From Candidatus Krumholzibacteriia bacterium (GTDB lineage Bacteria > Krumholzibacteriota > Krumholzibacteriia > JAJRXK01), in the NCBI GenBank assembly GCA_029932915.1, contig JAOZPE010000009.1, positions 15,785 through 76,273 on the forward strand: DNA of 60,489 bases, written 5' to 3'. The notes beneath the pieces are model-generated. The model was not told the origin of the DNA, ran no database searches, and saw nothing but the letters and a program-made list of their open reading frames with translations. How positions within the stretch are numbered: position 1 is the stretch's first letter; every line of letters begins with the position of its first letter. A program made the translations under genes and the position numbers. Positions 8,658 through 49,229 of the stretch are shown piece after piece.

Positions 8658-8839
8658 GGCCCTATTCGACCACGAATGCAGCGGCCTTGTCACCACCTGG
8701 ACGATTTCCGGTAGGAGCCGGACCGTCCTTGTCGTCCTGGAAGAAGAAGGGAGGTTCGAGCTCGGCTTGACGCTCCCCGCGTCGGAAAGCAGACTGGCCT
8801 CGTCAGTGGAAACGCCGATTCCTTCTGTCGGGAGCCCAA
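8658..8839. promoter_or_regulatory. Divergent control region between CHAT operon and sigma-factor gene
   Basis: The 182 bases separate two divergent starts (8657 minus, 8840 plus), so promoters for both transcription units should lie here. I see GGGAG six bases before the GTG of the sigma gene as its ribosome-binding site. I could not identify a convincing -35/-10 pair or a GGAAC-N16-CGTC-type ECF promoter by eye. Confidence 0.5.
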
Positions 8840-23514: not shown

Positions 23515-24774
23515 TCAGGACTTCCGCTCGCGTAGATCCCGGGCGAGTTCACGAATCTCCTGCAGGTCGCGCACCATAGCACTCCAGCCATACCATATGG
23601 TGTAGTCCGGATTCGCGTGGAAGGAGCCCTGGAAGGCCCGCATCCGATGCTTCAGGTGCATCTCGAACAGCTTGTGTTCGATCACCGTGGGAGCGTCGTG
23701 GAAGGTGAGCAGATCGGGATAGGCGTAGGCATAGCCCTCCGGCTTGGGGAGGATGCCGTCCTCGTACAGACCGGCGATGATGCGGATGGCCTCGGCCAGC
23801 AGGTGATCCGCCTCGCGGATCATGTCGTCCGACTTGGCCAGCTCGGCCTTGGCGAAGTTCTCCGAGTGACACTGGCCGCAGATTCCCAGCATCTTCTCCC
23901 GCTCCCGATCGAAGTCCTCCTGGGTGAGGCGGGCCACATCGGCCGCCTTCACCATGTCCAGACGGGCCGTCGGATTGCCCTGCGGATCGAGGACACCCAA
24001 GGCCTGCAGGATGGTCACCTGGTCGGCCTTCCACTGGGGATCCTCAGGCAGAGGCAGACGAACCGCGAGGAAGCCCCAGGCGGTACGCACCTCGTGGTTG
24101 CCGTCGGGCATGTGGCAGGTCTGGCAGGTGGGCGCTGGAGTGTCCTCAGGCAGGGTTCCATTCTGCCTCAACAGGGCACGGACCCCGTGCTTCGAAGAAC
24201 TCCACATCTCCCACTGCGGATGGTCGAAACCCATGTGACAGGTCTGGCACGCCTGGGGCTGCTGGGCCTCCTTCACCGAGAAGGTGTGACGGGTGTGGCA
24301 GGCGTCACAGGAGGCGTGTCCGAAGACCGATCCCTGGGCCTTCAACTGGGCGATGTCCTCGGCCGATTTCAGACCGAGTTTGTGACAGCCACCGCAACCC
24401 TTCATGCCCTCGTTGAGGGCCTTGGGCATGCCGTGCGTGGTGGGCATCGCCTGCAGGCTCGTCCAGGCGATGGCGTGTTTGCCTCTGGAGAACTGGGTGA
24501 CCTGATCGTCGTGACATTGTCCACAGGTCTCCGCAGTGGGCGTCAAGGCCTCGGCCACGTCATCGTAGTCGTCATGCGCGTCGCCATGACACACCGAACA
24601 ATCGATGTCGTTCTGGCTGTGCTTGGAGAGCTGCCAGTCCTTGACGATGTTCGGCGTCTCGTACTGATGGCATTCCACGCAGTCACCGGCCACCGCCGCC
24701 TTCGGAGATGGGACCAATGACACCGTTGAAAGCATTGCGATCGACACAAGGATAAGAAGGTGGATCTGCCGCAT
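23515..24774 (-). CDS. Octaheme cytochrome c of the hydroxylamine oxidoreductase family
   Basis: A 419-aa exported cytochrome. Residues 1-29 are a signal peptide. Eight CxxCH motifs follow, the count found in HAO. The family signatures EGMKGCGGCHKLG, CDACHTRHTFSVKEAQ and QTCHMGFDHPQWEMW are clear. HAO enzymes oxidise hydroxylamine or hydrazine, or in reductive members reduce nitrite; the direction depends on a Tyr cross-linked to the active-site heme. A candidate tyrosine-rich motif, NPDYTIWYGW, is present near the C-terminus, but I cannot decide by eye whether it is the cross-linking one. ATG 24774 has AAGGAGG nine bases upstream; the reading to 24858 lacks this support. No amo, ccm or cycB gene lies nearby. 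Confidence 0.85.
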   Translation of the reverse strand: MRQIHLLILVSIAMLSTVSLVPSPKAAVAGDCVECHQYETPNIVKDWQLSKHSQNDIDCSVCHGDAHDDYDDVAEALTPTAETCGQCHDDQVTQFSRGKHAIAWTSLQAMPTTHGMPKALNEGMKGCGGCHKLGLKSAEDIAQLKAQGSVFGHASCDACHTRHTFSVKEAQQPQACQTCHMGFDHPQWEMWSSSKHGVRALLRQNGTLPEDTPAPTCQTCHMPDGNHEVRTAWGFLAVRLPLPEDPQWKADQVTILQALGVLDPQGNPTARLDMVKAADVARLTQEDFDREREKMLGICGQCHSENFAKAELAKSDDMIREADHLLAEAIRIIAGLYEDGILPKPEGYAYAYPDLLTFHDAPTVIEHKLFEMHLKHRMRAFQGSFHANPDYTIWYGWSAMVRDLQEIRELARDLRERKS

Positions 24775-24873
24775 GAGCAAGACCCTCCTTTCCGTTCGGT
24801 AGGGGAAACCCATTGCCCCGTGCCGTCGGATGCAGCACGGAACACATCGATTGTGCACGGCATGGAGGGAAAA

Positions 24874-30297: not shown

Positions 30298-32517
30298 TCA
30301 GGCTACCACGTGGATGCGCCCATCCCCCTTCGTGGTGATCCGCCCGATGCACGCCGCCGCGGTGACCCCCCGTTTCTCGAGTTCCTCGAGCAATCGGTCG
30401 GCCTGCTCCTGGCCGACGCTGATCAACAGTCCACCGGAGGTCTGGGCATCGGCCAGCAGGAGATGGTCGATGCGGGTCAGCTCGGCGGCGAAGCCCACCT
30501 GATCGCCGACGTGGGCCAGATTGTTCAAGGTGCCACCGGGCACCGCACCCGCCGCCGCCAGATCACGGGCCGCACGGATCACCGGAACCGCAGACATCGA
30601 GAGTTCCGCCTCCACCCCACTGCCGGCGGTCATCTCCACCAGATGACCCAGCAGACCGAAGCCGGTGATGTCGGTACAGGCATGGACCTCGACCTCCATC
30701 ATCGCCTCGGCTCCGGCGCGGTTCAGGGCCACCATCACCGAGATGGCCTCCTGTGCAGTGGCTTCATCGGCCAGCCCGCTCTTCACCGCGGTCGCGATGA
30801 TTCCCAGACCGAGCGGTTTGGTGAGGATGAGGACGTCACCGACCTGCGCCGTCCGGTTCTCCACGATCCGGTCCGGATGCACGATTCCGGTCACCGCCAG
30901 ACCGAACTTGGGCTCGGTGTCCTCGACGGTGTGGCCGCCGATGATGCTGATCCCCGCTTCGGCCGCCTTGTCCATGGCGCCGGTGAGGATCCGTTCGAGC
31001 ACGCTCATCGGCAGACGTTTGTCGGGAAAGCCCACGATGTTCAGCCCGAACAGGGGCTGGGCGCCCATGGCGTAGATGTCCGAGAGTGAGTTGGCGGCGG
31101 AGATCGCCCCGAACTGGTAGGGGTCGTCGACGATCGGAGTGAAGAAGTCGACGGTCTGGACGATCGCAGTGTTCTCATCGATGCGATACACCGCGGCATC
31201 GTCGGCCGTGTCCCTTCCGACCAGGATCGCCGGATCGACCGCAGGGGGAAGGGAGGCGAGGACTTCCTCCAGGGCCTGCGGGCGCAACTTGCATGCGCAC
31301 CCGAGACCGTGGGTGTAATGGGTCAGCTTGTATTCGCCGGCCTCTCCTTCCACTCCCACCTGCACGGTCTCCGTGGACGGCAGAAGACGCTCTACCGCCT
31401 CGCTCACCACTTCGACCGCCTCGTCCACCTCAGCGGCCGTCGTCCCCCGGCCCACCGAGAAACGCACCGTCCCCATCGCCCACTCGACGGGAAGCTCCAT
31501 GGCCTCCAGGACCGCCGACACATCGATGTCGTCGGCGTGGCACGCGGCACCGGCCGATGCAGCCACCTTCTCGCCGATCTCCGACAGGAGGGTATTCGCC
31601 TCGACCCCGCGGAAGGACACGCTCAGGGTGTTCGGAAGTCTTCGCTCGGGATGACCGTTCAGGCGCAGGATCGACGCATCCAGCCGGTTCTGCAGACCCT
31701 CCCAGAGACGGTCCCGCATTTCCTGGAAGTGCGCTCCGTTCTTCTGGAGATCGCGGGCCGCGACTTCGCAGGCCCGGCCCAGGCCGACGATCTCCAGCAC
31801 GTTCTCCGTCCCCGGCCGCAGGTTGCGTTCGTGATCGGCCCCCTGCATCTGTTTGTCCACAGAAACGCCCCGCCGGATGTAGAGGGCGCCGATGCCCTTC
31901 GGAGCGTAGAGCTTGTGTCCGGCCACCGAGAGCAGATCGACGCCCAGTTTCCGGACATCGACCTCGATCTTTCCCGTCGACTGTGCCGCATCGGTGTGCA
32001 TCAACGCGCCGTGGCGATGGGCGATCTCGGCCAGCTCGGCAATGGGCTGGATCGTGCCCACCTCGTTGTTCGCGTGCATCACCGTCACCAGGGTGGTGTC
32101 GGAGGTGATGGCCTTCTCCAGATCGGCGGGATCGACGAGCCCGTCGCCGTCCACCGGAAGGACGGTCACCCGGAACCCCTCTCGCTCGAGCCAGTGGCAC
32201 ACCTCGATCACCGCCGGATGTTCCACCGCCGAGGTGATGATGTGACGACCGCGCGAGCGCAATGCCAGAGCCGCACCCTTGATCGCGTGGTTGTTGCTCT
32301 CGGTTCCCCCGCTGGTGAAGATCAGCTCGTCCGGCTCACATCCCAACAGCGCGGCCACCTGGCGCCGGGCCTCTTCCACGGCGCGTTTGGCCTCCACTCC
32401 ATAGGGATGCGTGCTCGAGGGATTCCCGAAATGGTCCCGGAGATACGGCGCCATCGCCTCGGCGACTTCCGGGGCGATGGGCGTCGTGGCGTTGTAGTCG
32501 AGATAGATCGGTCTCAT
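30298..32517 (-). CDS. Fusion of NifS/IscS-type cysteine desulfurase and SelD selenophosphate synthase
   Basis: A 739-aa protein joining two selenium-pathway enzymes. Residues 1-385 are a class V aminotransferase-fold desulfurase: NEVGTIQPI, Lys202 in SVAGHKLYAPKG (the PLP lysine) and Cys326 in SAGAACHADD (the nucleophile). Residues about 393-739 are a full-length SelD: the N-terminal LTHYTHGLGCACK has Cys407 and Lys410, equivalent to E. coli SelD Cys17 and Lys20. Cys rather than Sec is used at this site. Further SelD motifs are GRDTADDAAVYRI, DFFTPIVDDPY and LADAQTSGGLL. A desulfurase that also cleaves selenocysteine could pass Se directly to SelD, which makes monoselenophosphate with ATP. 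No selA, selB or tRNA-Sec is in the window. Confidence 0.92.
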   Translation of the reverse strand: MRPIYLDYNATTPIAPEVAEAMAPYLRDHFGNPSSTHPYGVEAKRAVEEARRQVAALLGCEPDELIFTSGGTESNNHAIKGAALALRSRGRHIITSAVEHPAVIEVCHWLEREGFRVTVLPVDGDGLVDPADLEKAITSDTTLVTVMHANNEVGTIQPIAELAEIAHRHGALMHTDAAQSTGKIEVDVRKLGVDLLSVAGHKLYAPKGIGALYIRRGVSVDKQMQGADHERNLRPGTENVLEIVGLGRACEVAARDLQKNGAHFQEMRDRLWEGLQNRLDASILRLNGHPERRLPNTLSVSFRGVEANTLLSEIGEKVAASAGAACHADDIDVSAVLEAMELPVEWAMGTVRFSVGRGTTAAEVDEAVEVVSEAVERLLPSTETVQVGVEGEAGEYKLTHYTHGLGCACKLRPQALEEVLASLPPAVDPAILVGRDTADDAAVYRIDENTAIVQTVDFFTPIVDDPYQFGAISAANSLSDIYAMGAQPLFGLNIVGFPDKRLPMSVLERILTGAMDKAAEAGISIIGGHTVEDTEPKFGLAVTGIVHPDRIVENRTAQVGDVLILTKPLGLGIIATAVKSGLADEATAQEAISVMVALNRAGAEAMMEVEVHACTDITGFGLLGHLVEMTAGSGVEAELSMSAVPVIRAARDLAAAGAVPGGTLNNLAHVGDQVGFAAELTRIDHLLLADAQTSGGLLISVGQEQADRLLEELEKRGVTAAACIGRITTKGDGRIHVVA

Positions 32518-36628: not shown

Positions 36629-37861
36629 TCATTTTCGATGGCACTGGATGCACAGATCCATTTCGGGATTGAGCGGCAGATACTTCTTGAACGGGGCTCC
36701 GTGGAGCTCGTGGCATGAGAGACAGGTCACCGGCTCCTCGGTGCGCGGATCGATGACCTTCGGGCCCACAGGGTGTCCTGCCTTGTGGGCCGCTTCGTGA
36801 CAGCCCGAACACAGGGCGACCTTGTCCCCTTTCAGCAATCGCTCATCGTTCGCCCCGTGCGGAAGGTGGCAGTTGCTGCAGTCCATTCCGTCGTGGGTGA
36901 TGTACTTCTCCTTGGAGAGTTTCCTCTCCGCTTCGTTGAAGTGGCATCTCATGCACAGCACCGTCTGCGGAGCGGTCAGCATCGCCTCCCCATTGGAGGT
37001 ATGGGCGTTGTGGCACTCCAGACAGGAGCGCTGACCGTCCATGATATGGTGGTAACGATAGGCCCCGGCCTTGCGAATCGACGGATGGCATCCCAGACAC
37101 AGCTCGCGTGGCTGCTCCTTCAGGGCGAATGCCTCGGGTCCACCCTGGGCGGGGTGACAACTGCCGCACTTGCCCTGTGCGAAGGGCTGGTGTTGGTTCG
37201 CCCGCAGCAGATGGTCCTGGTCGCTTCCGTGTGGATCGTGGCAGGTTCCGCAGTCTGCGCCCTCCATCCGGCTGCCGCGGTGCTTGGCCACGAAGGCGTC
37301 ATCCTGTTCGTGGCAGGTGAAGCACAGGCCGGGCACGTCCTCCCGCAAGAGCCGTCCCGCTGCGCTTCCGTGGGGTTCATGGCAGGTCGTGCACTCACCC
37401 TCGGCCACTGGAGGGTGTACCACACGCCGGGCCAGCCAAGCCTTCGTCTCCGAGTGACATCCCTCGCACAGATCCGGTGCCGGCTGCTCGAGGATGCTCG
37501 CGTAGGGGCTGGCGTGTGGATCGTGGCACTCTACGCACTCCCCGCGCGCCACCGGAGGATGGACGGTGGCGCGCCGGCTTTCCTCGCGCAGCTCGTCGTG
37601 GCAGCTCTCGCAGGTCTCCCCCACTGCGCCTTGCAGCAGGGCCGCGTGGTCGGACGCATGGGGATTGTGGCAACTGCTGCACTGCCCGCCGGAGAAGGCC
37701 TCATGGACGTAGCGCTGCGACAGGAGTTCCTCGATGTCGTCGTGGCATTGATAGCAGACCCCCGGCTCGTCGACTCTCGGCATCTCCGCGCCCGAGCCAG
37801 GAACCGCGGACATGGCGACCAGAAGGAGTGCCGAGGAAAAGAGGATCGAAGGAACTCTCAT
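36629..37861 (-). CDS. 16-heme c-type cytochrome (doubled-CXXCH type)
   Basis: A 410-aa exported multiheme protein. Signal peptide MRVPSILFSSALLLVAMSAV ends PGSGA. I count sixteen CxxCH motifs, about one per 25 residues, in the doubled pattern CxxCHDPHGS...LLR...LCxxCH typical of doubled-CXXCH (PF09699-like) repeats. Expected location is the periplasm or outer surface, with a continuous chain of stacked hemes. Start ATG overlaps the stop of the 26-heme gene (ATGA), so the two are translated together. It is the last gene of the electron-transfer cluster. I see no substrate-binding domain, so it is likely an electron conduit rather than an enzyme. Confidence 0.9.
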   Translation of the reverse strand: MRVPSILFSSALLLVAMSAVPGSGAEMPRVDEPGVCYQCHDDIEELLSQRYVHEAFSGGQCSSCHNPHASDHAALLQGAVGETCESCHDELREESRRATVHPPVARGECVECHDPHASPYASILEQPAPDLCEGCHSETKAWLARRVVHPPVAEGECTTCHEPHGSAAGRLLREDVPGLCFTCHEQDDAFVAKHRGSRMEGADCGTCHDPHGSDQDHLLRANQHQPFAQGKCGSCHPAQGGPEAFALKEQPRELCLGCHPSIRKAGAYRYHHIMDGQRSCLECHNAHTSNGEAMLTAPQTVLCMRCHFNEAERKLSKEKYITHDGMDCSNCHLPHGANDERLLKGDKVALCSGCHEAAHKAGHPVGPKVIDPRTEEPVTCLSCHELHGAPFKKYLPLNPEMDLCIQCHRK

Positions 37862-39846
37862 TGCCCTTCCCCTTTCGTCGCCGCTGAAGGATGGCAGGCA
37901 TCGCATCCCTGGCTGGCGAACGGATCGTGCTCCACCCGCTTCATCATCCCCGCTCCGGTGGAGACATGCGGATCGTGGCAACCGGTACAGTGCAGGTCGT
38001 CGCCGGCCTGACCCAGGTGCTTCTCCAGGAATCCACTGTCCGATCCATCGTGGCAGTCCAGGCACAGGCCCGGCTCGCTCTGGGTGAGCAGGTGCGGAAC
38101 CTCGCTCTGATGCGCCACATGGCAGGTCAGACAGTCATCGGCTGCCGGCTCATGCACTTCGCCCTTGGTGAAGCGATCGAGGAGATCACCGTGGCATTCG
38201 CCGCACAGGTGCTTCGAGTCGCTTACGAGAAGATGCTCGATCTTCCCCTTGTGCGGGAGATGACACGTCGTGCACTCGCCGGAAGCGAATGGCGCATGCA
38301 CACTCTGGCCGGGAACCGGCGTCGATGGGGCTCCGTCGTGACAGCTCGTACAGAGTTCGCTCACCGGATCGGTCAACAGCATCTCCTGCGCTGAAGCGTG
38401 AGGATCGTGACAGGTATCACATTCCCGCTCGGCGAAGGGAGGATGCAGGACGTCGTCCGCTGCATCCTGAAGGAGATTCCCGTGGCATCCGTTGCACAGC
38501 TCATCGGCGGTCGCCTTCAACAGGGGAGCCACCGGCGCACTGTGGGCTCCGTGGCAGTCGTTGCAACGGCCCTCCTTGAGCGGAGTGTGGCTGCTCCGAC
38601 TGGCCAACCAGTCCCTGGCCTCGTCGTGGCAATCGGCGCACAGATCGAAACGGTCCTGACGGGTCAGGGCGGGGAAATCCGATCCATGGGGTACGTGGCA
38701 ATCGGTGCACTCGCCGTCTTCGAAGGGAGGATGGACCTCGGCGGCATCGTGCTCTTCCTGGAGATCGCCGTGGCACGAAAGACAGACCTCGTTCTTCCCC
38801 ATCGTCAGCAAGATCTTCGACTGTTGTCCATGCGCCACGTGACAGTTGGTGCAGTCCTCTCGCGCCGGAGCGTGACGCGAGCTGCGGACGAGATCCTCCT
38901 CGATGTCGCCATGACATTGCAGACACAGCTTTTCCGGTTCCTCCATCAGCAGGACGGGCTGCCGTGAGCCATGGGGCTGATGGCATTCCAGGCATTCACC
39001 ATCGGCCACCGGCATATGCACGCCCTCGGGAGCCACCTCATCGGCGTCATGACAGCTGAGACACAGCTCCGAGGGGTCGGTTTCGTTCAAGGCGAACGGA
39101 TTCTCGTCGGTCGGCGCCGTGTGACACGATCCACAGTCGTCGGCGACGGCGACGTGGAAGGAACGGGTGAGCAGGCCCTTCTCCTGCGAAGTATGGGGTG
39201 AATGGCACTTCATGCAGGAGTCCCCGCCGATCGGGTACCCCTGATGCGCCTTCTGCATCGGCTCCTGTGACAGATCGTGGCACGAGACACAGAGTTCGGC
39301 GGCCGGCATCTTCAACAGATGCTCGTTGTCGCTCCCGTGCACGTCATGGCAACTGAAACAACCTGCCTCGAGGGGTTGGTGCCGTACCTCTCCAGTGAAC
39401 TCCGCTCCTCCGTGGCAACTCCGGCAGACCTTCTCCACCGTGTCGGCCAGCAGATTCTTCTTCGGGGCCGCATGGGGATCGTGGCAACTCAGACACTTTC
39501 CCGTCCGGGCCGGTTCGTGGACCCGGCTCTTCTCCAGGCCCAGGGATTCGCGGTCATGGCAGATCATACACAGCGCCGCGCCCGTGTCCTTCAATCGCAA
39601 CATCCCCACCAGTCCGTGGGGCTTGTGGCACGAGCGGCATTCCTTCTTCGCAAAGGGCTCGTGGCGCACCGAATCGTCGAGGGTCTTCCAATCATGACAA
39701 TCCAGACATCCGCCCTTCGACGAGAAGCGGCTGCCGCGCTTGATCTGCGCGTGGCAGTCCAGAGGCATTGCCGACAACAGCAGCACCAGGCCGACGCCGG
39801 CACTCAACCATGCCATCCAGGGATGATGATTTCGTGTGCTGCGCAT
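37858..39846 (-). CDS. 26-heme c-type cytochrome (doubled-CXXCH type)
   Basis: A 662-aa exported protein with a signal peptide (core LSAGVGLVLLLSAMP, cleavage after CHA) and twenty-six CxxCH motifs by direct count, one per 24 residues. The regular repeat (HxPxxxxxCxxCHDPHAS...LLxxxxxxLCxxCH) shows tandem growth of a doubled-CXXCH unit. No transmembrane helix or lipobox follows the signal peptide, so a periplasmic, soluble or barrel-inserted wire is expected. Of two ATGs, 39846 is preferred because GAGAGG lies nine bases upstream; 39855 has almost no spacing. Coupled by ATGA overlap to the 16-heme gene; together they would hold 42 hemes. Confidence 0.9.
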   Translation of the reverse strand: MRSTRNHHPWMAWLSAGVGLVLLLSAMPLDCHAQIKRGSRFSSKGGCLDCHDWKTLDDSVRHEPFAKKECRSCHKPHGLVGMLRLKDTGAALCMICHDRESLGLEKSRVHEPARTGKCLSCHDPHAAPKKNLLADTVEKVCRSCHGGAEFTGEVRHQPLEAGCFSCHDVHGSDNEHLLKMPAAELCVSCHDLSQEPMQKAHQGYPIGGDSCMKCHSPHTSQEKGLLTRSFHVAVADDCGSCHTAPTDENPFALNETDPSELCLSCHDADEVAPEGVHMPVADGECLECHQPHGSRQPVLLMEEPEKLCLQCHGDIEEDLVRSSRHAPAREDCTNCHVAHGQQSKILLTMGKNEVCLSCHGDLQEEHDAAEVHPPFEDGECTDCHVPHGSDFPALTRQDRFDLCADCHDEARDWLASRSSHTPLKEGRCNDCHGAHSAPVAPLLKATADELCNGCHGNLLQDAADDVLHPPFAERECDTCHDPHASAQEMLLTDPVSELCTSCHDGAPSTPVPGQSVHAPFASGECTTCHLPHKGKIEHLLVSDSKHLCGECHGDLLDRFTKGEVHEPAADDCLTCHVAHQSEVPHLLTQSEPGLCLDCHDGSDSGFLEKHLGQAGDDLHCTGCHDPHVSTGAGMMKRVEHDPFASQGCDACHPSAATKGEGQ

Positions 39847-39873
39847 GATCCTCATCCTCTCGGCTCACTGAGC

Positions 39874-41589
39874 TCACGATCCACGGGAGAAATACGACTC
39901 GATCGAGGATTCATTCCTCACGATCGTCGATCGACTCTTGAGAAGCCGGAGATGCTCGTCGAGAAGTTCATTGAACTTCTTCTGGAACATCACGCCGCGA
40001 ATCGTCGCATCCACTTCCTCCAGGCTCGGTATCCTTCCAGGGCGCCGACCGTCCAACTGGAAGAAGAGCCATCCCTGGGAGATCTCGTCCGGACCCGACA
40101 CATCTCCCACCTTCATGCCCGCGACCGCCTTCTGGATCCGATCGCTGAAGGTGTCCAGACTTGCCCACGATCTCTCGTTGGCCTCGGTCTCCGAGACGAT
40201 GGTGTACTCGCCCTTGATCCGGTCGAAATCGCTGCCCGCTCTCAGGCGTTCCGCGAGTTCCTCGGCCTGCTCCTCGTTCGAGATGACGACGATGTCCAGG
40301 AGAACCTGCTCCGGCCCGCGCCATTCTTCCTTGTGCTGATCGTAGTACTGCTGGAATTCCCGGTGGGAGAAGCGGATCTTCGGAACGATCGCTTCCGCCA
40401 GGTAGGCCTCGATGAGTTTCTTGCGACGGGCATTCTCCAAGGCGCGGCGGACTTCGGGCCTCTGCGCATACCCGTCCCTCTGGGCCAGGTGATCCAGCAC
40501 CAATGCCTCGGTCGTGGCCTCGACCGCCCGCTCGAAGACAGTCGAGAAGGAAGCGGTCCCGTCATTCATCGTCTGGTGCGAGATCTCCTGCCGCAATTCG
40601 TAGTCGGAGATGGACGGCCCCGACGCGATCGAGAATGCGGGGTCGTTCGTCCCCTTCAGGAATCCGGCTTTCAGGCGCTGGGTCGAATCGGCCCGGATGG
40701 CCGAGATGACCGCCTCGTGTTCCCGGACGGGCACCACCGTCTTCAGGCTGTCCATGAAGGCCCGCCAGGAACGCTTCCGGTCATGATCCAGGAGGATCTT
40801 CTCCACCGTCCCCCGCTCACGCTCGAAGCCGTCGTCCGGCGCCGGGCTTCGCTTCTCCATCCGCACGAAGGACCAGGCATCGCGGTAGGGGAAGATTTCG
40901 GAGACCTCACCTGGCTGCAGGTTCCGGGCGACCGTGGACAGCGGCGACGGAATCTCCAGCAAGGGCAACTCGTGATGGAGTCCACCAGCGAGCTTCTTCG
41001 TATCCAGCGACGAGGCCCTCGCCATGCTGTCCATGTCGGCTCCGGCCAGGACGGCCTCCCGGGCCCTCTCGGCCTCGTCCCTGGTACGCAATGACATCTG
41101 GCGCAACTGCATCCGTTCGTAGTTGACCCGGTACGAGCTCTTCAGCCGTGCCTCGCCGACCTCCGAGGGAGCGCGGTAGTGGTCGCGCAACCAGAACGAA
41201 GCCGCCTTCTCCCGTTCGATCTTCTCCAGTTCGGCTCGTATTCCCGGTTCTTCCTCCAGACCGAGCGCCTCGGCCTGCTGTACCAGCAGTTCGTCGTTGA
41301 TGGCCTTGTCCAGGAGCTTCCGCGGATCGAAGCGTCTCATGCCCTCCTGGCTCATCGAGTGATGCGTCTCCTCCAGCAGGCGGTCCAGATCGGCGGTGGT
41401 GATCGGTGCACCGTTGACCCACACCAGGGTGTCGACGGCGGCGGCAGGCGTCCCATCGCCTCCAGTGGCCGCGACGACCTCGCTCGTCTTCCCGCCATCC
41501 GCGGCGACCGCCATCGCTCCTCCACTGATCACGAGAAGGGCGGCGGCCGTCAGCGCAACCATGAGTTTCTCAGGAGTGTTTCTCGCCAT
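39874..41589 (-). CDS. Periplasmic parvulin-type peptidyl-prolyl isomerase with two PpiC-like domains
   Basis: A 571-aa SurA/PpiD-like protein. Signal peptide core VALTAAALLVISGGAMAVA. A helical SurA-N-like part follows (about 55-140: VNGAPITTADLDRLL, FDPRKLLDKAINDELL). First parvulin-like region at about 150-265 (RQMSLRTRDEAERA, PGEVSEIFPYRDAWSFVRM). A second helical part lies around 310-400 and a second parvulin region at 415-540 (LDIVVISNEEQAEELAERL, VGDVSGPDEISQGWLFFQLDGR). These proteins chaperone outer-membrane barrels and cytochromes. It overlaps the 3' end of the upstream gene by 20 bases. Its place between barrel and multiheme genes suggests it assists their folding. Confidence 0.82.
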   Translation of the reverse strand: MARNTPEKLMVALTAAALLVISGGAMAVAADGGKTSEVVAATGGDGTPAAAVDTLVWVNGAPITTADLDRLLEETHHSMSQEGMRRFDPRKLLDKAINDELLVQQAEALGLEEEPGIRAELEKIEREKAASFWLRDHYRAPSEVGEARLKSSYRVNYERMQLRQMSLRTRDEAERAREAVLAGADMDSMARASSLDTKKLAGGLHHELPLLEIPSPLSTVARNLQPGEVSEIFPYRDAWSFVRMEKRSPAPDDGFERERGTVEKILLDHDRKRSWRAFMDSLKTVVPVREHEAVISAIRADSTQRLKAGFLKGTNDPAFSIASGPSISDYELRQEISHQTMNDGTASFSTVFERAVEATTEALVLDHLAQRDGYAQRPEVRRALENARRKKLIEAYLAEAIVPKIRFSHREFQQYYDQHKEEWRGPEQVLLDIVVISNEEQAEELAERLRAGSDFDRIKGEYTIVSETEANERSWASLDTFSDRIQKAVAGMKVGDVSGPDEISQGWLFFQLDGRRPGRIPSLEEVDATIRGVMFQKKFNELLDEHLRLLKSRSTIVRNESSIESYFSRGS

Positions 41590-42643
41590 CGGCACTCGCT
41601 TTCTCGATTCGTTCCACGAAGCGTTGCAGGCTATCCATCATGAGATCGACGAGCGAGTAGGTGCGACCCCGCTGGAACAGGGTCTGCCCCTTCCTTCCGG
41701 TTCTCTCGTCGTACCAGGAGTCGAGGATCCGGCCCGTCGGCGCGTCCAACAGGCGCGCGTAGACCGACACATGGGGAATCGAAGCCGGGGAATCACCCCG
41801 CGCCCCGTCGTAGACCTCGACGGTACCGGTGATGACATAGGCGATGGAATCCTCCCGGGTCAGGATCTCCAACGACGGCAGATCGATCTCGCCCTTGAAC
41901 ACCTTCGAGCGCCTCAACAGGGTTTCCCTCACCACCCCGGGTTCGAGACACGGATACCCGGCCTTCAGCAAGGCCGACAACATCATGCCGCTGACGGCAT
42001 CTCCATCGCGCCAGCTCCGCGAACTCCCATCGAAGGGAATGATGCAGCAGCGGGCACGCGGTGGAGCAGCGACCGCCGGCGAGGTCTTCCATCTCCCCCC
42101 TTCCCAGAGTTCCGTCAGCACCTCGTCGACCGCCCTTCGCGCGACCATCGCGATGTCCCGCCGCCGTCCAGTGCCGAACAGGCCCTCCAGGTCATGTCCG
42201 CTGCTCCCTCCACTCGCCGCCGCATCCACCAGGAGATCCCTCGCATCGACCAGGCGCACGGAGAAGCCGAACTCGAGAGGCTGGGCCTCCCGGAAGGCGT
42301 CGACCGATCCGATCAGGAACCACCTCGCTCCGGTCGTCTGCCGAAGGATGGACGCTCCCCGCCGGTCGATCCTCCCCACCGCGCGGATCCGGTGTTCACG
42401 AAGAACCGGCCGGATGGCCTGGGGATCGATGCAATCCACCCCCACTGAATCCAGGAACGCGCAGATCAGCCGCTCGGCCATCTCCACGGCCTTGATCCTC
42501 CCGGTGTGGTTGGCCAACGGCAACATCACCACCGAGATCGAATCCGCGGACGAAGAGGTCTCCACGACGGCAGCGCTCTGCGCCCTGCCCCATGACGGGC
42601 CCAGCACAAACAGAACGACCAGGAAGAAGAGGCTTCTCTTCAT
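41570..42643 (-). CDS. Exported protein with two CsgG/TolB-N-like domains
   Basis: A 357-aa periplasmic or outer-membrane-associated protein. Signal peptide MKRSLFFLVVLFVLGPSWG ending GRA. The first domain (about 33-150) contains VVMLPLANHTGRIKAVEMAERL, VDCIDPQAIRPVLREH and a GARWFLIGSVD strand; the second (about 195-345) repeats the layout (CCIIPFDGSS..., CLEPGVVRETLL, IAYVITGTVEVYD). This is the alpha/beta pattern of the CsgG, LpoB and GNA1162 group. ATG 42643 is preceded by AGGAGGGG. It precedes the isomerase and overlaps it. A structural role in the envelope complex is likely; no catalytic residue is visible. Confidence 0.7.
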   Translation of the reverse strand: MKRSLFFLVVLFVLGPSWGRAQSAAVVETSSSADSISVVMLPLANHTGRIKAVEMAERLICAFLDSVGVDCIDPQAIRPVLREHRIRAVGRIDRRGASILRQTTGARWFLIGSVDAFREAQPLEFGFSVRLVDARDLLVDAAASGGSSGHDLEGLFGTGRRRDIAMVARRAVDEVLTELWEGGRWKTSPAVAAPPRARCCIIPFDGSSRSWRDGDAVSGMMLSALLKAGYPCLEPGVVRETLLRRSKVFKGEIDLPSLEILTREDSIAYVITGTVEVYDGARGDSPASIPHVSVYARLLDAPTGRILDSWYDERTGRKGQTLFQRGRTYSLVDLMMDSLQRFVERIEKASADGEKHS

Positions 42644-42730
42644 CACCCCTCCTGCGTCCACTCGTTGCCGATCTGCGTCCATATCATCTTCATCCCATGT
42701 CGGAGCCGAACTCCCCTTCGACCCCTCTGC

Positions 42731-43312
42731 CTACTTCACCAGCGTCGAGACACTCTTCTTCACACACTTCTGCGCCACTTCCGCGGGCGAGGCCTGGGGC
42801 GTTCCGAACAGACTCGACCAGAAGCCGCGGTTGTCCGCGCTCGTGGTCGCCGACCAGATGGTCGTTCCGGCCTGCGTCTCCACCAGGCGTGTGACCAGCG
42901 TCACCGTGGTCACCGTGGTTCCCCCATTCCGCGACGAGGCCGACGCGGCGACCGATCCGAGGAACAGCCCCTGCGCCTTCAGCTCCTCGCCCATCTGGAC
43001 GATCTGCTCCTTGGTCAACTCCATTCCTCTCACGAGCTTCATCTCCTGCATGACCCGATGGACCTCTCCGGGTTCGACCACCTCGAAGGCCTTCGTCGCC
43101 AACAGCTCGGACAGGAAGTAACGGCTGATCTGAGCCCCGGCCCCCCGGTCGGAAGTCAGATTCTCGAAGGGAATGACAGCCACCCGCTCCACGTATCCGA
43201 AGTCGTAATCCGGATGTATGAACACCGTCGATCCCACCCCTCCACACCCCACCAGCAGGAGAACCGGCATCCAGGCCAGCAATGACCACTTCACGCCCGT
43301 GTTCCTTCTCAT
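42731..43312 (-). CDS. CsgG/LpoB-like lipoprotein
   Basis: A 193-aa lipoprotein with lipobox LLVGC (Cys at about residue 23). The mature domain has VERVAVIPFENLTSDRGAGAQISRYFLSEL and FEVVEPGEVHRVMQEMKL followed by GLFLGSVAASASSRNG, the core pattern of the CsgG/LpoB fold. CsgG itself forms the curli secretion pore, and LpoB activates a peptidoglycan synthase, so the sequence allows either a secretion or a scaffolding role. ATG 43312 has AAGGA eight bases upstream; GTG 43318 is too close to it. It lies 25 bases after the stop of the large barrel gene. Confidence 0.75.
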   Translation of the reverse strand: MRRNTGVKWSLLAWMPVLLLVGCGGVGSTVFIHPDYDFGYVERVAVIPFENLTSDRGAGAQISRYFLSELLATKAFEVVEPGEVHRVMQEMKLVRGMELTKEQIVQMGEELKAQGLFLGSVAASASSRNGGTTVTTVTLVTRLVETQAGTTIWSATTSADNRGFWSSLFGTPQASPAEVAQKCVKKSVSTLVK

Positions 43313-43337
43313 ACCCACGTTCCTTCCGATCGTCGCT

Positions 43338-45434
43338 TCACAAACTGAAACGGATTCCTTCCTCCAGAGCCCAACTGTTCCTTCCCCCCGCTTGCAGGAA
43401 GTTCAGCCGGGAATAACGGACATAGAGACTTCCTCGGCGCCCCAGCTTGTAGCTGAGGTTGGCACTGTACCGCTCGCTGCGGTAGGCGGCCGAACCGCGA
43501 TTCAAGTACGCTTGCACGATGGCCGAGAGTTTCGGCAGCAGGTTCCACCCGAGAAGATAGTCCTGCCGCAGACTCTCGTTGATGTCACGAATCGAACTGA
43601 TATTCCCACGAGCGAAGATCGTGGCGGTCGGACGAAGATCGAAGCCGACGGTATAGACGATCCGGTATCGCCTCCAATGCGCCGGTTTCTCCAGGATGTC
43701 CTGCCACATCCAGGTGAAGTTGAGCCTGAAGAACTCGGTGACCGTCCCGTTGAACGACGCTCCCATCCGCCAGATGTCCGACTGCAGATGGCTGAGATCG
43801 TTGTAGGTGGAATTGAATCCGCCTTCGATCCCGAGATCCAACGACGGGAATGGAGAGCCGTTGGCGTCGGCGAGAAAGCCATGGAAGCGCTGGGTGCGCA
43901 CGCCGGCTTCGTAGGTCCATCGCCCATTGGCCGAGAGCGAGGACCGGAGCTTGGGCAAGGGCTGGTAGATGAGTGCGTAACCCAGGAAATCGTCCCGCAG
44001 ATCCTCCCGGCCGGCGGAGAAGTCCTGGAACGACTGCGACCATCTGAGGCTGTGTCGCAACCGGTCCGAATTCTTGTAATTCCCCCTCAACGTGTAGTTG
44101 AACAGACCTCGATCGCCCAGATTCCCATCTCCGATCTCCCTGCGGAAACTCATGTCTCCCCCGAGGGCGATACGCGTGTTCATCGTGCGATCGATCCGCA
44201 GATCGAAGAGATGGGTCCGGTGGATCCGCCTGAGCTCTCCGATGTCCTGCAGTTCCTCGAGGACCTCGATCTCGGTGACCAGCAAAGGGACCACCGGCGC
44301 CAGACCGTCCTTGACCACCTTGACGAAGCGCGCATGGGCCTCGCCGAACTCCAGCTCGTAGCGCTGCAGGCCCAGGTTGAAGCGGGTGACGACATTGGTG
44401 CTGACCTGACTCCAGTTGAAATTGTCATCGGAGACATAGACGGTCCATATGGGACCCAGGGCCGAGGCCCGGTCGACGTACACGTACGCGGCGACCACCG
44501 AGCGTGGGGTACCCAGATCGACGCCGACGTTCTGGGCCAGCGCGGCTCCACCAATGTCGATTTCCGGATTGGTCGGAGTCTGCCGATCGCCGTCGATCAG
44601 CGACGGGTTCTCCGACAACACGCCTTGGGCCGGGTTCGGATCCTCCGCATAGAGTCCGGCCTGGAGCGGCACCGCCTGAAGAACACGCCCCCCGGTCCTC
44701 ACCTCATTGTGGATGGTCGAGTAGGTGAAGTTGTAGTTGGAGGCAAGCTGTGTACGGCCGTCCTCCAGTTCGAGGAAGGACAGCCAGCGAAAGAGATGGT
44801 CGTCGGCGACCGAGTTCAGATCGGTGATGACGTTCTCGGTCTCGCGGTGGCTGTACGTATAGTGGAAATCGTTCTTCTCCAGATCCCAGTCTCCGCCCAG
44901 CAGAAGCCGGCGGTCCTTGATGTCGCGGAAGTCGAGATCGACGTCGTCGTGGATGTGCTGCCAGTCGTAACGTGCTCGCAACAGCGGGTATCTCTGGTCT
45001 CGGGTGTTCAATGAGAAGGTGATGTTGTCGTTGGTCAGATTGGAAACGATGGCGCCGCCGCGGGAGATGCGACGGCGTCCGGTGGCCGCGAAACGGAAGA
45101 GAGGATGGTTCCAGCTCAGATCGATACTGGGTTGTCTTTCCTCATTGAAGACGTTCAGCGCCTGCTCCTGTGCCAGGTCGAACTTGAAGAAACGGTACGC
45201 CAGACGGAGCTTCGTGTATCGGGCGAGCGACAGTTCGGTATAGAGATTGTAGTTCTGACGCAGTGAGTTCTGCCGGCCCAGGAGCTCCGAATGGTTCTGC
45301 ACGAAGGTGAGATCGGCGTAGCCGTGCAACCAGGGAAGAAAACGGGCCTGGGCGCGTCCGGCGGACGACACGATCAGGCATACCACGACCGCGGTGAGCA
45401 GACACAGGGGGAGTTGCAGCTTCTTCCAGCCCAT
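43338..45434 (-). CDS. Large outer-membrane beta-barrel of the electron-transfer cluster
   Basis: A 698-aa exported protein. Signal peptide core LCLLTAVVVCLIVSSAG ending RAQA. From about residue 35 on there are some 20 or more amphipathic strands separated by charged turns (YNLYTELSLARYTKLRLAYRF, RARYDWQHIHDDVDLDF, SLSANGRWTYEAG, FRLNFTWMWQDI, SLYVRYSRLNFL), ending GIRFSL. An insert at about 300-390 (SVVAAYVYVDRASALG, WTVYVSDDNFNWSQV, RFVKVV) looks like an F5/8-type C (discoidin) domain. Size and context suggest the porin partner of periplasmic multiheme cytochromes, comparable in role to MtrB or ExtG-type proteins, though not clearly homologous. Its ATG overlaps the propeller gene's stop (TGATG). 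Confidence 0.82.
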   Translation of the reverse strand: MGWKKLQLPLCLLTAVVVCLIVSSAGRAQARFLPWLHGYADLTFVQNHSELLGRQNSLRQNYNLYTELSLARYTKLRLAYRFFKFDLAQEQALNVFNEERQPSIDLSWNHPLFRFAATGRRRISRGGAIVSNLTNDNITFSLNTRDQRYPLLRARYDWQHIHDDVDLDFRDIKDRRLLLGGDWDLEKNDFHYTYSHRETENVITDLNSVADDHLFRWLSFLELEDGRTQLASNYNFTYSTIHNEVRTGGRVLQAVPLQAGLYAEDPNPAQGVLSENPSLIDGDRQTPTNPEIDIGGAALAQNVGVDLGTPRSVVAAYVYVDRASALGPIWTVYVSDDNFNWSQVSTNVVTRFNLGLQRYELEFGEAHARFVKVVKDGLAPVVPLLVTEIEVLEELQDIGELRRIHRTHLFDLRIDRTMNTRIALGGDMSFRREIGDGNLGDRGLFNYTLRGNYKNSDRLRHSLRWSQSFQDFSAGREDLRDDFLGYALIYQPLPKLRSSLSANGRWTYEAGVRTQRFHGFLADANGSPFPSLDLGIEGGFNSTYNDLSHLQSDIWRMGASFNGTVTEFFRLNFTWMWQDILEKPAHWRRYRIVYTVGFDLRPTATIFARGNISSIRDINESLRQDYLLGWNLLPKLSAIVQAYLNRGSAAYRSERYSANLSYKLGRRGSLYVRYSRLNFLQAGGRNSWALEEGIRFSL

Positions 45435-46810
45435 CACGGCACCAGCACCGCATAGGGTCTTCTTCCCACCGGAATCCATCCCGTCAACTCGCGCGACTGC
45501 GCCCCCACCACCGCCAAGCCGTCGCCGTCGGGCATGACGGCGTAGATCTGCGATGACGCAGAATCGGTGATCAGCAGACCGGGGGCGAAGGGCAGCCGGA
45601 CCTGGGTGGTCTCCATGCCCTGGGTCACGGCGGCGAACGAGATCTTCCGGCATCGCGAGGCCGCCGCCACGACCTCCCTCCCCAGCGGAGCGAAGGCGAG
45701 TCCACGGGCTGCCGAGCACAGTTCCATCAGCGCCACGACCGCTCCCGACTGTGCATCGAGCATGACGATCTTGCGCTGCCGGGCACTGGCGACGAGAAGC
45801 AATGACCGCGTCTCGTCGAGGATGAGTTCACCCGCTCCTCCGTCGACATTCCACCGCAGTGGCTCGCGCTGATCATCCATGTCGTAGACGATGACGGCGT
45901 CTCGTACGCGACTGCTCACATAGAGTCGTTTGCGGAGCGGATCGTAGGCGAACGCCACCGGCTCGGGTTCCACGACCAGACGCTCGAGTTCCTGGAGGAA
46001 ACCGGCGTCGAGGATGGAAACCGTGCTCGACGCGGAATTGAGGACGAAGAGACGGGAGTTGGCTTCATCCATCCACAGCCGGGAGGGCGTATCACCGGCG
46101 TGCAGCCCAACCTCCTGTTCCTTGCGATGATCCACGAGATCGATGACCGCCACCGCATCGTCGCCGGCCAGGGCGACATACAGACGCTGATGCAGACGTG
46201 ACCACGCCATTCCCCGGGGGCCACGGCCGACACTGATCTCGCCGCGGGGAGTCAGGCGCCATCGATCCAGGAGGGTCAGGCTGTTCGATTCCTCGTTGGT
46301 GACGAGGATCGCTCCCCCAGGAGGCGGAAGGGTGGGCTCGACGAGCGAGAGGCCCGTCTCATAGGGACGGTTCGGATCCCCCAGTGCCTGAGGCAACCAG
46401 TCTACGATCCAAAGGGAGGTCCGGCCGGGCAGGATCTCGATGTCCGCGGCCAGCACCACACTGTCCGGCGGTGAGGGATGGACCATCGCCACCCCGGCGG
46501 GAGCCGTCACCGAGAGCAGGTGCAGACGAAGAGCTCGATAGGATCCGGAGGGAATTGCGCACTCGGCGACGCGAACGAGCGATGGGGTCGATGCCTCATT
46601 GGACCAGGTGGCTTCTCTCAGGGGGACACCGACCGGCTCCCGGACCCCGAGCAGTTCCACCCCACCCACATCCAGGATCACCCCCGGAGCGCCTCCTTCC
46701 GCGCGTTGAAGGTAGAGAACCAGCTTGCCATCGGGTTCAGCCGCAGACACGCCGGCCGCGCCGAACAGGCAGAGCAGAGCTCCCCACTTCAAGAGCGAAG
46801 GAATTCGCAC
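45434..46810 (-). CDS. Exported YVTN/YncE-like beta-propeller protein
   Basis: A 458-aa protein with an SPase I signal peptide (LLKWGALLCLFGAAGVSA). Residues 27-165 form a beta domain (LVLYLQRAEGGAPGVILDVGGVEL) that resembles DUF4382-type carbohydrate or surface domains. About 167-455 is a seven-bladed propeller of the YVTN type: blades such as GAILVTNEESNSLTLLDRW, QRLYVALAGDDAVAVIDLVD, SRLFVLNSASSTVSILDAG and KRLYVSSRVRDAVIVYDMD. GTG start with GGAGG five bases upstream. It overlaps the large barrel gene by one base, so the two are coupled. Probably an extracellular or periplasmic scaffold for the cytochrome complex. Confidence 0.82.
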   Translation of the reverse strand: MRIPSLLKWGALLCLFGAAGVSAAEPDGKLVLYLQRAEGGAPGVILDVGGVELLGVREPVGVPLREATWSNEASTPSLVRVAECAIPSGSYRALRLHLLSVTAPAGVAMVHPSPPDSVVLAADIEILPGRTSLWIVDWLPQALGDPNRPYETGLSLVEPTLPPPGGAILVTNEESNSLTLLDRWRLTPRGEISVGRGPRGMAWSRLHQRLYVALAGDDAVAVIDLVDHRKEQEVGLHAGDTPSRLWMDEANSRLFVLNSASSTVSILDAGFLQELERLVVEPEPVAFAYDPLRKRLYVSSRVRDAVIVYDMDDQREPLRWNVDGGAGELILDETRSLLLVASARQRKIVMLDAQSGAVVALMELCSAARGLAFAPLGREVVAAASRCRKISFAAVTQGMETTQVRLPFAPGLLITDSASSQIYAVMPDGDGLAVVGAQSRELTGWIPVGRRPYAVLVP

Positions 46811-46906: not shown

Positions 46907-47980
46907 CTAGTTGGGATTGGCGTCGTGGGCATCCTTGTTGTGGCACTTGTTGCACAGCGAACGCTGATTGACATTGCCATAGGGATCGGGAATCGCATAC
47001 GACCCCGAATTGACCCCGTCGTCGGACAAGAATGTCACGTTGAAATCCCAACGTCCCGAATCCGGACCGCTACTGGCATGTGCGCGGTGGCAGGTGATGC
47101 ACGAGACCTGGCTCGTCGCACTCGGACCGGTCGTGGTGCTCACACCGTTCGCTGCGTCCTCGAACGGAACCTCGGGCAGATAGGCAGTGGCGTGGGTACC
47201 GCCCTGCTGATCGGCTGTGCCGTTGTAGAGGTCGTAGGTGTTCGCGATGGTGGCACCCATGGCCACTCCACTGGGATGGATCAGCTTGGTGCCATTGGCA
47301 TGGAAGTCACCATGGCAGTTTCCGCACCAGGCACTCATGCCGCCCTGATAGGCGGTATGGTAGGTGGGACTCTCCTCGCCCGCGTAGATGCTGATCCCTT
47401 CAGCCGTGGGCGCCGCATTGGCAAAGGTGGCGATGCCACCCTGCACGACACGGCCGGCGCCGTAGAGCATCCGGAAATCCTGCGTGCCATGAGGATCATG
47501 GCAGCTCGTGCAGCCCATCTGTGAAGCGGGGAAGCTTCCCCCCGGTGAGGTCGTCAAGGTGGCGTCAGGAGCCAGGCCATGCCCTGGGGCATTCAGGTTG
47601 TGCCCCGCAGCGTCTCCGGGGATGGCGTGCGTCCAGGCTCCCGTGCTGTCGACGGCACCACCGTTGTGACCGTCATTGAGGTTGTCTTCCAGCAGGAAGA
47701 TGAAGTTTCCGGCCCCCTTCATGGGCGACGGATCGAGAACGTCATTGGCGAAGACTGCACCGAGATGAATCGCGTGGCAGTCCAGGCAGACGTCGCTCGG
47801 CGTGCCGTCCTTCAGGAGCCAGGGGTTGCCATTGGGAGAATCCGGATCGACCAGAACCCCATCCTGGCTGTTGTGCATGGTGTGGCAACCGTTGCAGTGG
47901 GCCACCCCATGATCGTGGAATGCCAACGCCGGAGCCGCGATGAAACACAGCCCCAGAGCCAGCAGAAACGCCTTCTTCAT
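46907..47980 (-). CDS. Hexaheme c-type cytochrome, OmcS-like (nanowire type)
   Basis: A 357-aa exported cytochrome with six CxxCH motifs, the number found in OmcS. It follows Geobacter OmcS from end to end as I recall that sequence. The mature N-terminus AFHDHGVAHCNGCHTMHNS is matched, as are GHNLNAPGHGLAPD with LTTSPGGSFPASQ, CTSCHDPHG, GGMSAWCGNCHGDFH, GATIANTYDLYNG with ATAYLPEVPFE, CITCHRAHAS and the final RSLCNKCHNKDAH. OmcS polymerises into extracellular filaments with a continuous heme chain. The protein is about 70 residues shorter than OmcS, mainly in the loops. ATG 47980 has GGAGG eight bases upstream and gives a signal peptide ending in APALA. Second gene of the cluster, after an NHL protein. 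Confidence 0.9.
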   Translation of the reverse strand: MKKAFLLALGLCFIAAPALAFHDHGVAHCNGCHTMHNSQDGVLVDPDSPNGNPWLLKDGTPSDVCLDCHAIHLGAVFANDVLDPSPMKGAGNFIFLLEDNLNDGHNGGAVDSTGAWTHAIPGDAAGHNLNAPGHGLAPDATLTTSPGGSFPASQMGCTSCHDPHGTQDFRMLYGAGRVVQGGIATFANAAPTAEGISIYAGEESPTYHTAYQGGMSAWCGNCHGDFHANGTKLIHPSGVAMGATIANTYDLYNGTADQQGGTHATAYLPEVPFEDAANGVSTTTGPSATSQVSCITCHRAHASSGPDSGRWDFNVTFLSDDGVNSGSYAIPDPYGNVNQRSLCNKCHNKDAHDANPN

Positions 47981-48089: not shown

Positions 48090-49229
48090 TCATCTCGCGT
48101 CGGCTCCGGTGTCGACACCGCCGAGGCCCATGGCCTCGCTGGATGAGCCGGAGGTGGACGCCCCCGGCGAAGCGTTGCGGGAGGTTCGGGGTCGGATGAC
48201 ATCTGGAATCGCGCAGACCTGAACCCGGTTCAGGAAGATCTGCCCGATATAGACCTGATCGGAGGCGTCGACGCCCAGCAGACTGGGGAAGTAGAACCAC
48301 CCCGGGCTCTGCCCGCGGCCGCCGAATTCTCCGAGGAATTTCCCCCACTCGTTGAAGCAGAGGACGTTGAAACGATGCTTGTCCAAAACGAGGATGGTTC
48401 CGTCCTCGGCGACATCCACCGCGACGGGGAAGGCGAATTTCCCCGGGGTGGCACCGCCTGAGCCCAGGGTCCTCAACAGGCGGCCCTGCCGGTCGTAGAC
48501 CTCGACCATCGCCTCGCTGGAGACCGGCAGATAGATGCGGTCGCCGCGGATGCGGAGATCCCCGAAGACCACTTCATCGACGAGCTCCTCATCGGTGGCG
48601 ACGGGGAAGGACCGTAGCAGGCGCCCGTCGTCCTCGTGGATGGAGATCACCCAGCGCCGATCGCGTTGATACAACAGGGCGACCTGACCGTCCGCGGCCA
48701 CGTCGAAGTGACGGATCTCGCCGAGGCCGTCGCCCTCGATCTCCACTTCGCCCAGGTACAGACCGTCGAAGTCGAAGCGTTGCAATCTCGCCCCGCCGCG
48801 GGTGGAAGCCAGGATGAGGATGGTACCCGATGGCTCGACGGCCAGATCGATGGGAAAGCCGAAGTGTTCGTCGCCGGAGAACTCGAAACGATAGACGCCG
48901 TCGGTATCGAAGATGACGATGCGGTGATGACCGGAATCACCGATCAGGATCTCCCCATGCTCGCGATCGACGGCGAGGCAGCTCGGCCGCAACAGCCCAT
49001 TGCCCTCACCCGGTGGATCGAGGAAACGGAGGAACTCGGCCGGAATGGAGATCTGTGCCCCGGCGGATGCGCCCGTCCCGAGCAGAAGGGCGGCGGCGAG
49101 GACGACGGCCATCGGCGGACGGAACACGGGCCGAAGGGGGTGACCCCATATCGATGGCCGGATCCTCGACGATCTCCGCATGGTGGAACCGCTCACAGAA
49201 GGGAGAGAAGCGAGTCGGGTACGCTTCAA
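48090..49229 (-). CDS. Exported NHL-repeat beta-propeller protein
   Basis: A protein of up to 379 aa. After a basic N-terminus, the hydrophobic stretch AVVLAAALLLGTGASAGA is a signal peptide (about residues 41-58). Six NHL-like blades follow (LRPSCLAVDREHGEILIGDSG with HHRIVIFDTDG, FPIDLAVEPSGTILILAS, FAFPVAVDVAEDGTILVLDK, FYFPSLLGVDASDQVYIG). The end is a Ser/Gly-rich tail. The start is uncertain: a TTG at 49229 has GATGAGG seven bases upstream; ATGs at 49181 and 49112 have no ribosome-binding site but give a more normal signal peptide. First gene of the electron-transfer cluster. NHL proteins commonly accompany extracellular cytochrome genes. Confidence 0.8.
   Translation of the reverse strand: MKRTRLASLPSVSGSTMRRSSRIRPSIWGHPLRPVFRPPMAVVLAAALLLGTGASAGAQISIPAEFLRFLDPPGEGNGLLRPSCLAVDREHGEILIGDSGHHRIVIFDTDGVYRFEFSGDEHFGFPIDLAVEPSGTILILASTRGGARLQRFDFDGLYLGEVEIEGDGLGEIRHFDVAADGQVALLYQRDRRWVISIHEDDGRLLRSFPVATDEELVDEVVFGDLRIRGDRIYLPVSSEAMVEVYDRQGRLLRTLGSGGATPGKFAFPVAVDVAEDGTILVLDKHRFNVLCFNEWGKFLGEFGGRGQSPGWFYFPSLLGVDASDQVYIGQIFLNRVQVCAIPDVIRPRTSRNASPGASTSGSSSEAMGLGGVDTGADAR

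Follow-up and report, generated by a model that had tools for sequence, protein, structure and literature searches.

The window analyzed here, a 60,489-nucleotide stretch of DNA, encodes a secreted hexaheme c-type cytochrome, P0001, that is a homolog of OmcS, the wire subunit of Geobacter sulfurreducens. The genes around it point to an osc ("OmcS companion") operon that apparently has every gene needed to assemble and export an OmcS-type wire. We consider it probable that this is a Krumholzibacteriota osc operon whose single hexaheme protein is a wire subunit, aided in its export by a peptidyl-prolyl isomerase (PPIase), an outer-membrane barrel and lipoproteins, and joined to its neighbors through His16. 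The locus is unusual in its non-Geobacter host, yet it is part of a known, widespread operon, and its wire-subunit homolog is shorter than that of Geobacter. The gene and its parts are:

46907..47980, minus strand: OmcS-family hexaheme c-type cytochrome P0001, oscC position; 357 aa, mature 337 aa
47989..47993, minus strand: Shine-Dalgarno sequence GGAGG, 8 nt 5' of the P0001 ATG, read from the sequence
47921..47980, minus strand: predicted signal peptide, residues 1-20, read from the sequence; ends ALA, cleavage before FHDHG
47882..47896, minus strand: heme motif 1, CNGCH, protein position 29
47873..47875, minus strand: His16 (mature numbering), equivalent of OmcS His16 by alignment
47774..47788, minus strand: heme motif 2, CLDCH, protein position 65
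47498..47512, minus strand: heme motif 3, CTSCH, within a Paired_CXXCH_1 match
47312..47326, minus strand: heme motif 4, CGNCH, from mature position 199
47087..47101, minus strand: heme motif 5, CITCH, from mature position 274
46940..46954, minus strand: heme motif 6, CNKCH, from mature position 323

The open reading frame runs from an ATG at 47980 to a stop at 46907 on the minus strand, and the plus-strand frames across 46907-47980 are shadow frames. An earlier, sequence-only reading of this DNA had claimed six heme motifs, all of which were recovered as CxxCH in this frame, but on the minus strand; the termini that it quoted, AFHDHGVAHCNGCHTMHNS for the mature N-terminus and LCNKCHNKD for the C-terminus, both occur exactly in P0001. 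One secreted chain thus combines six CxxCH motifs with the FH..GV..C..CH start that the OmcS-like hexaheme family requires. The predicted cleavage site is the position at which mature OmcS begins, the 6EF8 chain starting with FHSGG.

The relationship to OmcS extends well beyond the heme motifs, as that reading had proposed. A phmmer search of the PDB with P0001 had OmcS (6EF8/6NEF) as its only significant match (E=1.1e-41); the OmcZ and OmcE structures were not found by it. Identity to OmcS is 40% over 318 columns of the family alignment and 44% over 316 columns of a global pairwise alignment. With all CxxCH motifs masked, the pair still scored 278 in a Smith-Waterman alignment, where shuffled sequences averaged 43 (z about 33). 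Furthermore, an AlphaFold2 model of P0001, built from an alignment of 57 homologs (mean pLDDT 79.6), had 6EF8 chain A as its sole PDB fold match (E=2.5e-19). The TM score of this match is 0.76 when normalized to the query and 0.64 when normalized to the target, and its rmsd, 5.4 A, indicates that model and structure differ in details. Membership in decaheme DmsE/MtrA-type or octaheme families was rejected on weak scores. Membership in OmcZ or OmcE was likewise rejected, P0001 having six hemes rather than eight or four and the PDB sequence search having found neither. Loss of the bridging histidine and absence of similarity outside the heme motifs, the two outcomes named beforehand as speaking against an OmcS-like protein, were both looked for, and neither was observed.

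In OmcS all 12 axial heme ligands are histidines, 11 from the own subunit and one, on heme 5, from the neighboring subunit (PMC6584659; also PMC7096707). The OmcS filament has an axial repeat of 47.5 A (PMC6584659). P0001 has the six CxxCH histidines and six conserved distal histidines, matching this 12-histidine ligation; H2, H16, H107, H144, H215 and H281 align with OmcS H2, H16, H110, H147, H257 and H335, and are assigned by conservation as candidate axial ligands. The bridging residue of OmcS, lent to heme 5 of the neighboring subunit, is reported to be His16 in the paper on the 6EF8 structure. Conservation was assessed over 94 rows, namely P0001, OmcS and 92 homologs picked by BLAST alone, without a motif filter. 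H107, H215 and H281 are kept in 94/94 rows, H144 in 91/94, H2 in 88/94 and H16 in 87/94. The seven rows without an H16 equivalent (L045, L075, L079, L086, L087, L091 and L096) are otherwise complete, with six or seven heme motifs, and their CHTMHNS segment is rebuilt (e.g., CHLSDSQ or CHGAPAG). Loss of H16 while most other ligands stay fits a residue that serves the neighbor and not the monomer. These relatives are possibly non-polymerizing members of the family and could serve as natural controls for what the bridging histidine does. The lowest-confidence part of the P0001 monomer model comprises residues 1-23, which hold H2 and H16; a stretch that packs against a neighboring subunit should behave in this way, but the observation is suggestive only.

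The spacing of the hemes, which had been described as following OmcS, does so for hemes 1-3. The CxxCH intervals are 36/92/62/75/49 in P0001 versus 38/93/99/89/72 in OmcS, so that intervals 1-2 agree and the last three are 14-37 residues shorter. The predicted shorter loops are therefore real: the mature protein has 337 residues versus 407 in OmcS, and the approximately 70 missing residues fall mostly between hemes 3-4, 4-5 and 5-6. The suggestion that P0001 is a special, minimal subunit did not hold, since a mature length of 318-352 residues is the rule in its clade, with almost no exceptions (copies from Krumholzibacteriota, Zixibacteria, Delongbacteria, Fibrobacteria and Acidobacteria), and some Desulfuromonas copies have about 354. 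P0001 is thus short but not exceptional, and naturally short subunits of this kind offer material for testing how much protein a heme wire needs.

The genes flanking P0001, from the NHL propeller through the 16-heme gene, lie on one strand with short gaps:

48090..49229, minus strand: NHL-repeat beta-propeller directly upstream of P0001, start codon uncertain (Pfam NHL, 1.5e-13)
45434..46810, minus strand: YncE-like beta-propeller, oscD position (Pfam YNCE, 1.3e-6)
43338..45434, minus strand: predicted large outer-membrane beta-barrel with signal peptide and inserted F5/8-type-C-like domain, oscE position (AF2 pLDDT 87.7, all-beta)
42731..43318, minus strand: LpoB/CsgG-like lipoprotein with lipobox VLLLVGCGG, oscF position (Pfam LpoB, 4.7e-6; orthologs)
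41570..42682, minus strand: CsgG-like protein, oscG position (CsgG, 5e-4, just under the cut-off; orthologs)
39874..41595, minus strand: parvulin-type PPIase, oscH position (Rotamase_2, 6.2e-28)
37858..39855, minus strand: 26-heme c-type cytochrome, oscI position (26 CxxCH)
36629..37861, minus strand: 16-heme c-type cytochrome, oscJ position (16 CxxCH), start taken at MRVPSILF, the mechanical ORF being longer

The eight-gene osc block (PMC12977616), oscC-oscJ, has the folding and export of OmcS wires as its recently proposed function, and its authors' title calls it "widespread and ancient" (Shen et al. 2025, as relayed in PMC13194489 and PMC12977616). The roles of OscD-H and the letters oscC, oscI and oscJ follow PMC13194489, as given there after Shen et al. 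2025; letters D-H were assigned to the window genes by order and role. In the window the oscC-oscJ order is complete on one strand, position H being taken by the PPIase. For genes too dissimilar for BLAST, positional matches were checked by hhalign for the barrels and by Rotamase_2 for the PPIase. The barrel aligned with Geobacter-type barrels at a probability of 100 (E=9e-56), and in Citrifermentans bremense (L078) the gene at the PPIase place matched Rotamase_2 at 4.3e-21, while the YNCE family again occupies the oscD position. MtrB is the sheath of the Mtr heme conduit, and it gave the best PDB match to the barrel model (6r2q_B, E=2e-10); a TM score of 0.37-0.39 means that this match says little beyond "large barrel".

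The order of the P0001 block recurs in Desulfuromonadaceae (L064), Desulfuromonas (L062), Geomonas (L070, L074, L093) and C. bremense (L078). Four or more of the seven companions are present in 32 loci, many of them sharing the order, from Desulfuromonadota, Myxococcota, Nitrospirota, Acidobacteriota, Zixibacteria, Fibrobacterota, Rokubacteria and Planctomycetota. The NHL propeller occupies the same place in L034, L037, L041, L044, L062, L064 and L070. The YncE-like gene is missing in some osc-like loci (L034, L044, L052), and the hexaheme gene sits behind the 16-heme gene in L048, L080 and L103. The 26-heme protein has exactly 26 CxxCH in 33/45 homolog ORFs, the rest including fragments and fusions; exactly 16 were counted in 16/33 homolog ORFs of the 16-heme protein, many of the others being cut by locus ends. 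In addition, single ORFs with 42 CxxCH occur at L053:3891-7184 (plus strand) and L055:5305-8535 (plus strand), in which an initial portion aligning with the 26-heme protein is followed by one aligning with the 16-heme protein. From such a clean OscI-OscJ fusion it seems that both large cytochromes may act as one electron relay.

The named relatives nearest the window are Krumholzibacteriota MAGs, a match was found in 29/80 genomes searched in the phylum, and the host is most likely a member of the class Krumholzibacteriia. The earlier reading was right that the host is not a member of Desulfuromonadota; its assertion that the locus lies outside a Geobacter-type context fails for the genes, the next seven of which follow the Geobacter osc order. 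The host genome encodes cytochrome c assembly proteins. A scan of viral contigs revealed no relatives. Elsewhere in the window, an eight-CxxCH cytochrome at 23518-24858 (minus strand) matches Multi-haem_cyto (PF13447, 8.7e-27) with weak hydrazine dehydrogenase-type similarity, and a single 739-aa ORF at 30298-32517 (minus strand) fuses a NifS/IscS-like cysteine desulfurase to the selenophosphate synthetase SelD. An 1119-aa ORF at 5535-8894 (minus strand), by eye TPR plus CHAT-type and with no NCBIfam match, adjoins a sigma-factor-like ORF with weak TPR similarity at 8840-10516 (plus strand).

In a tree of 88 rows, P0001 falls in a 35-row clade with Krumholzibacteriota and other phyla (SH-aLRT 98), and OmcS and the OscC-type Geobacteraceae copies lie together in a separate 38-row clade (SH-aLRT 98). 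Identity of P0001 is 44% to OmcS versus 42-45% to the OscC-type copies, for which Geomonas, Citrifermentans and Geobacteraceae sequences stand in for G. sulfurreducens OscC. Neither the tree nor these identities group P0001 with OmcS apart from the OscC-type paralogs, and together they make it seem that OmcS and OscC split later than their common line split from P0001. On this phylogenetic ground, P0001 is best classed as an OmcS-family member in the oscC position, not as an OmcS ortholog. The host genome holds a second OmcS-like gene, a heptaheme paralog on contig C67:13270-14442 (L152, minus strand), with no osc genes beside it. Its seventh CxxCH, 14-17 residues past heme 6, is shared by 8/15 rows of the second paralog clade, itself included; L013-L017, L026 and L028 carry a second OmcS-like paralog with this motif, and L034 has a member of the clade with six hemes, located after the 16-heme gene.

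From the homology, ligand conservation, fold and gene order described above, we infer export, polymerization and electron flow, including its direction, along the following lines. P0001 would be exported by Sec and receive its hemes in the periplasm, where the PPIase in the oscH position would aid folding. The large beta-barrel (oscE position) and the LpoB- and CsgG-like proteins (oscF and oscG positions) may together provide outer-membrane passage or anchoring, and the propeller proteins may shape or dock the product. Subunits would then polymerize head to tail, His16 filling the open sixth site on heme 5 of the next subunit to give a continuous heme chain, to which the 26- and 16-heme proteins would carry electrons from the periplasm.

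Several observations count against P0001 as the wire subunit. It resembles the OscC-type copies as closely as it does OmcS, and it lies outside the clade that holds both; among OmcS, OmcT, OmcJ and GSU2501/OscC, wires are known from OmcS only (PMC12977616), and OscC is listed as periplasmic, function unknown (PMC13194489). The C67 heptaheme protein could itself be the wire, and whether even Geobacter needs OmcS wires physiologically is disputed (PMC11077965; PMC13194489). The main alternative, though unlikely, builds on several of these points: P0001 would be an OscC-type adapter, located in the periplasm or the outer membrane, by which a wire is started or connected, with another cytochrome, such as the C67 heptaheme protein, as the filament. 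Its place in the oscC position, as the first gene ahead of the propeller and barrel, agrees with such a role, as do the periplasmic listing of OscC and the presence of a second OmcS-like gene. However, a lone hexaheme gene also heads the block in L037, L041, L044 and L064, the C67 paralog adjoins no osc genes, and P0001 has a QRSLCNKCHNKD-like end, as in OmcS (QRALCNKCHAKD), whereas Geomonas OscC-type copies end QQGLCYKCHAT.

It appears very unlikely that P0001 stays monomeric and never polymerizes, acting as a secreted or periplasmic electron carrier that the osc-like genes only export. Full-length homologs without H16 mean that non-polymerizing relatives may exist, but P0001 retains H16 and the entire CHTMHNS segment, and a monomer would have one heme without a sixth ligand unless a neighbor supplied a histidine. 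The chance that P0001 is an unrelated multiheme protein, made to look like OmcS by convergent CxxCH motifs, is close to negligible: such motifs are common to multiheme proteins, and decaheme and octaheme models also score weakly, but the masked-motif score, the full-length alignment, the sole fold match to 6EF8 and the shared gene order all speak against it. The wire-subunit reading thus remains the preferred one. A more speculative extension, possible but doubtful as a whole, is a leaner OmcS-type wire in Krumholzibacteriota, with approximately 330 residues per six hemes and a less thickly wrapped heme chain, fed by the 26- and 16-heme periplasmic relay (which some relatives have as a 42-heme fusion), with the heptaheme paralog, whose extra heme lies just after heme 6, as its starter or cap.

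Judged from its genes, a complete OmcS wire locus is now placed in an uncultured, little-studied phylum, and its parts can be compared with known systems. OmcZ and OmcE also form cytochrome filaments, but with eight and four hemes (PMC9473688). The Oet, OmcS-like and OmcX clusters of syntrophic sulfate reducers likewise place a barrel and large multiheme cytochromes next to a cytochrome of OmcS-like type; they were described in Desulfobacterota, and their likeness to the P0001 locus is drawn from that description (PMC10553843). With OmcS itself (GSU2504, PDB 6EF8/6NEF) P0001 shares the C-terminal QR.LCNKCH.KD, the 12 candidate axial histidines and the predicted fold, and differs in a 7-residue tail after KD and in its place outside the OmcS clade. 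The Geobacter osc locus, with OscC (GSU2501), matches in its order of hexaheme, propeller, barrel, LpoB-like, CsgG-like, PPIase, 26-heme and 16-heme proteins, but has omcS, omcT and oscC where the window operon has one hexaheme gene.
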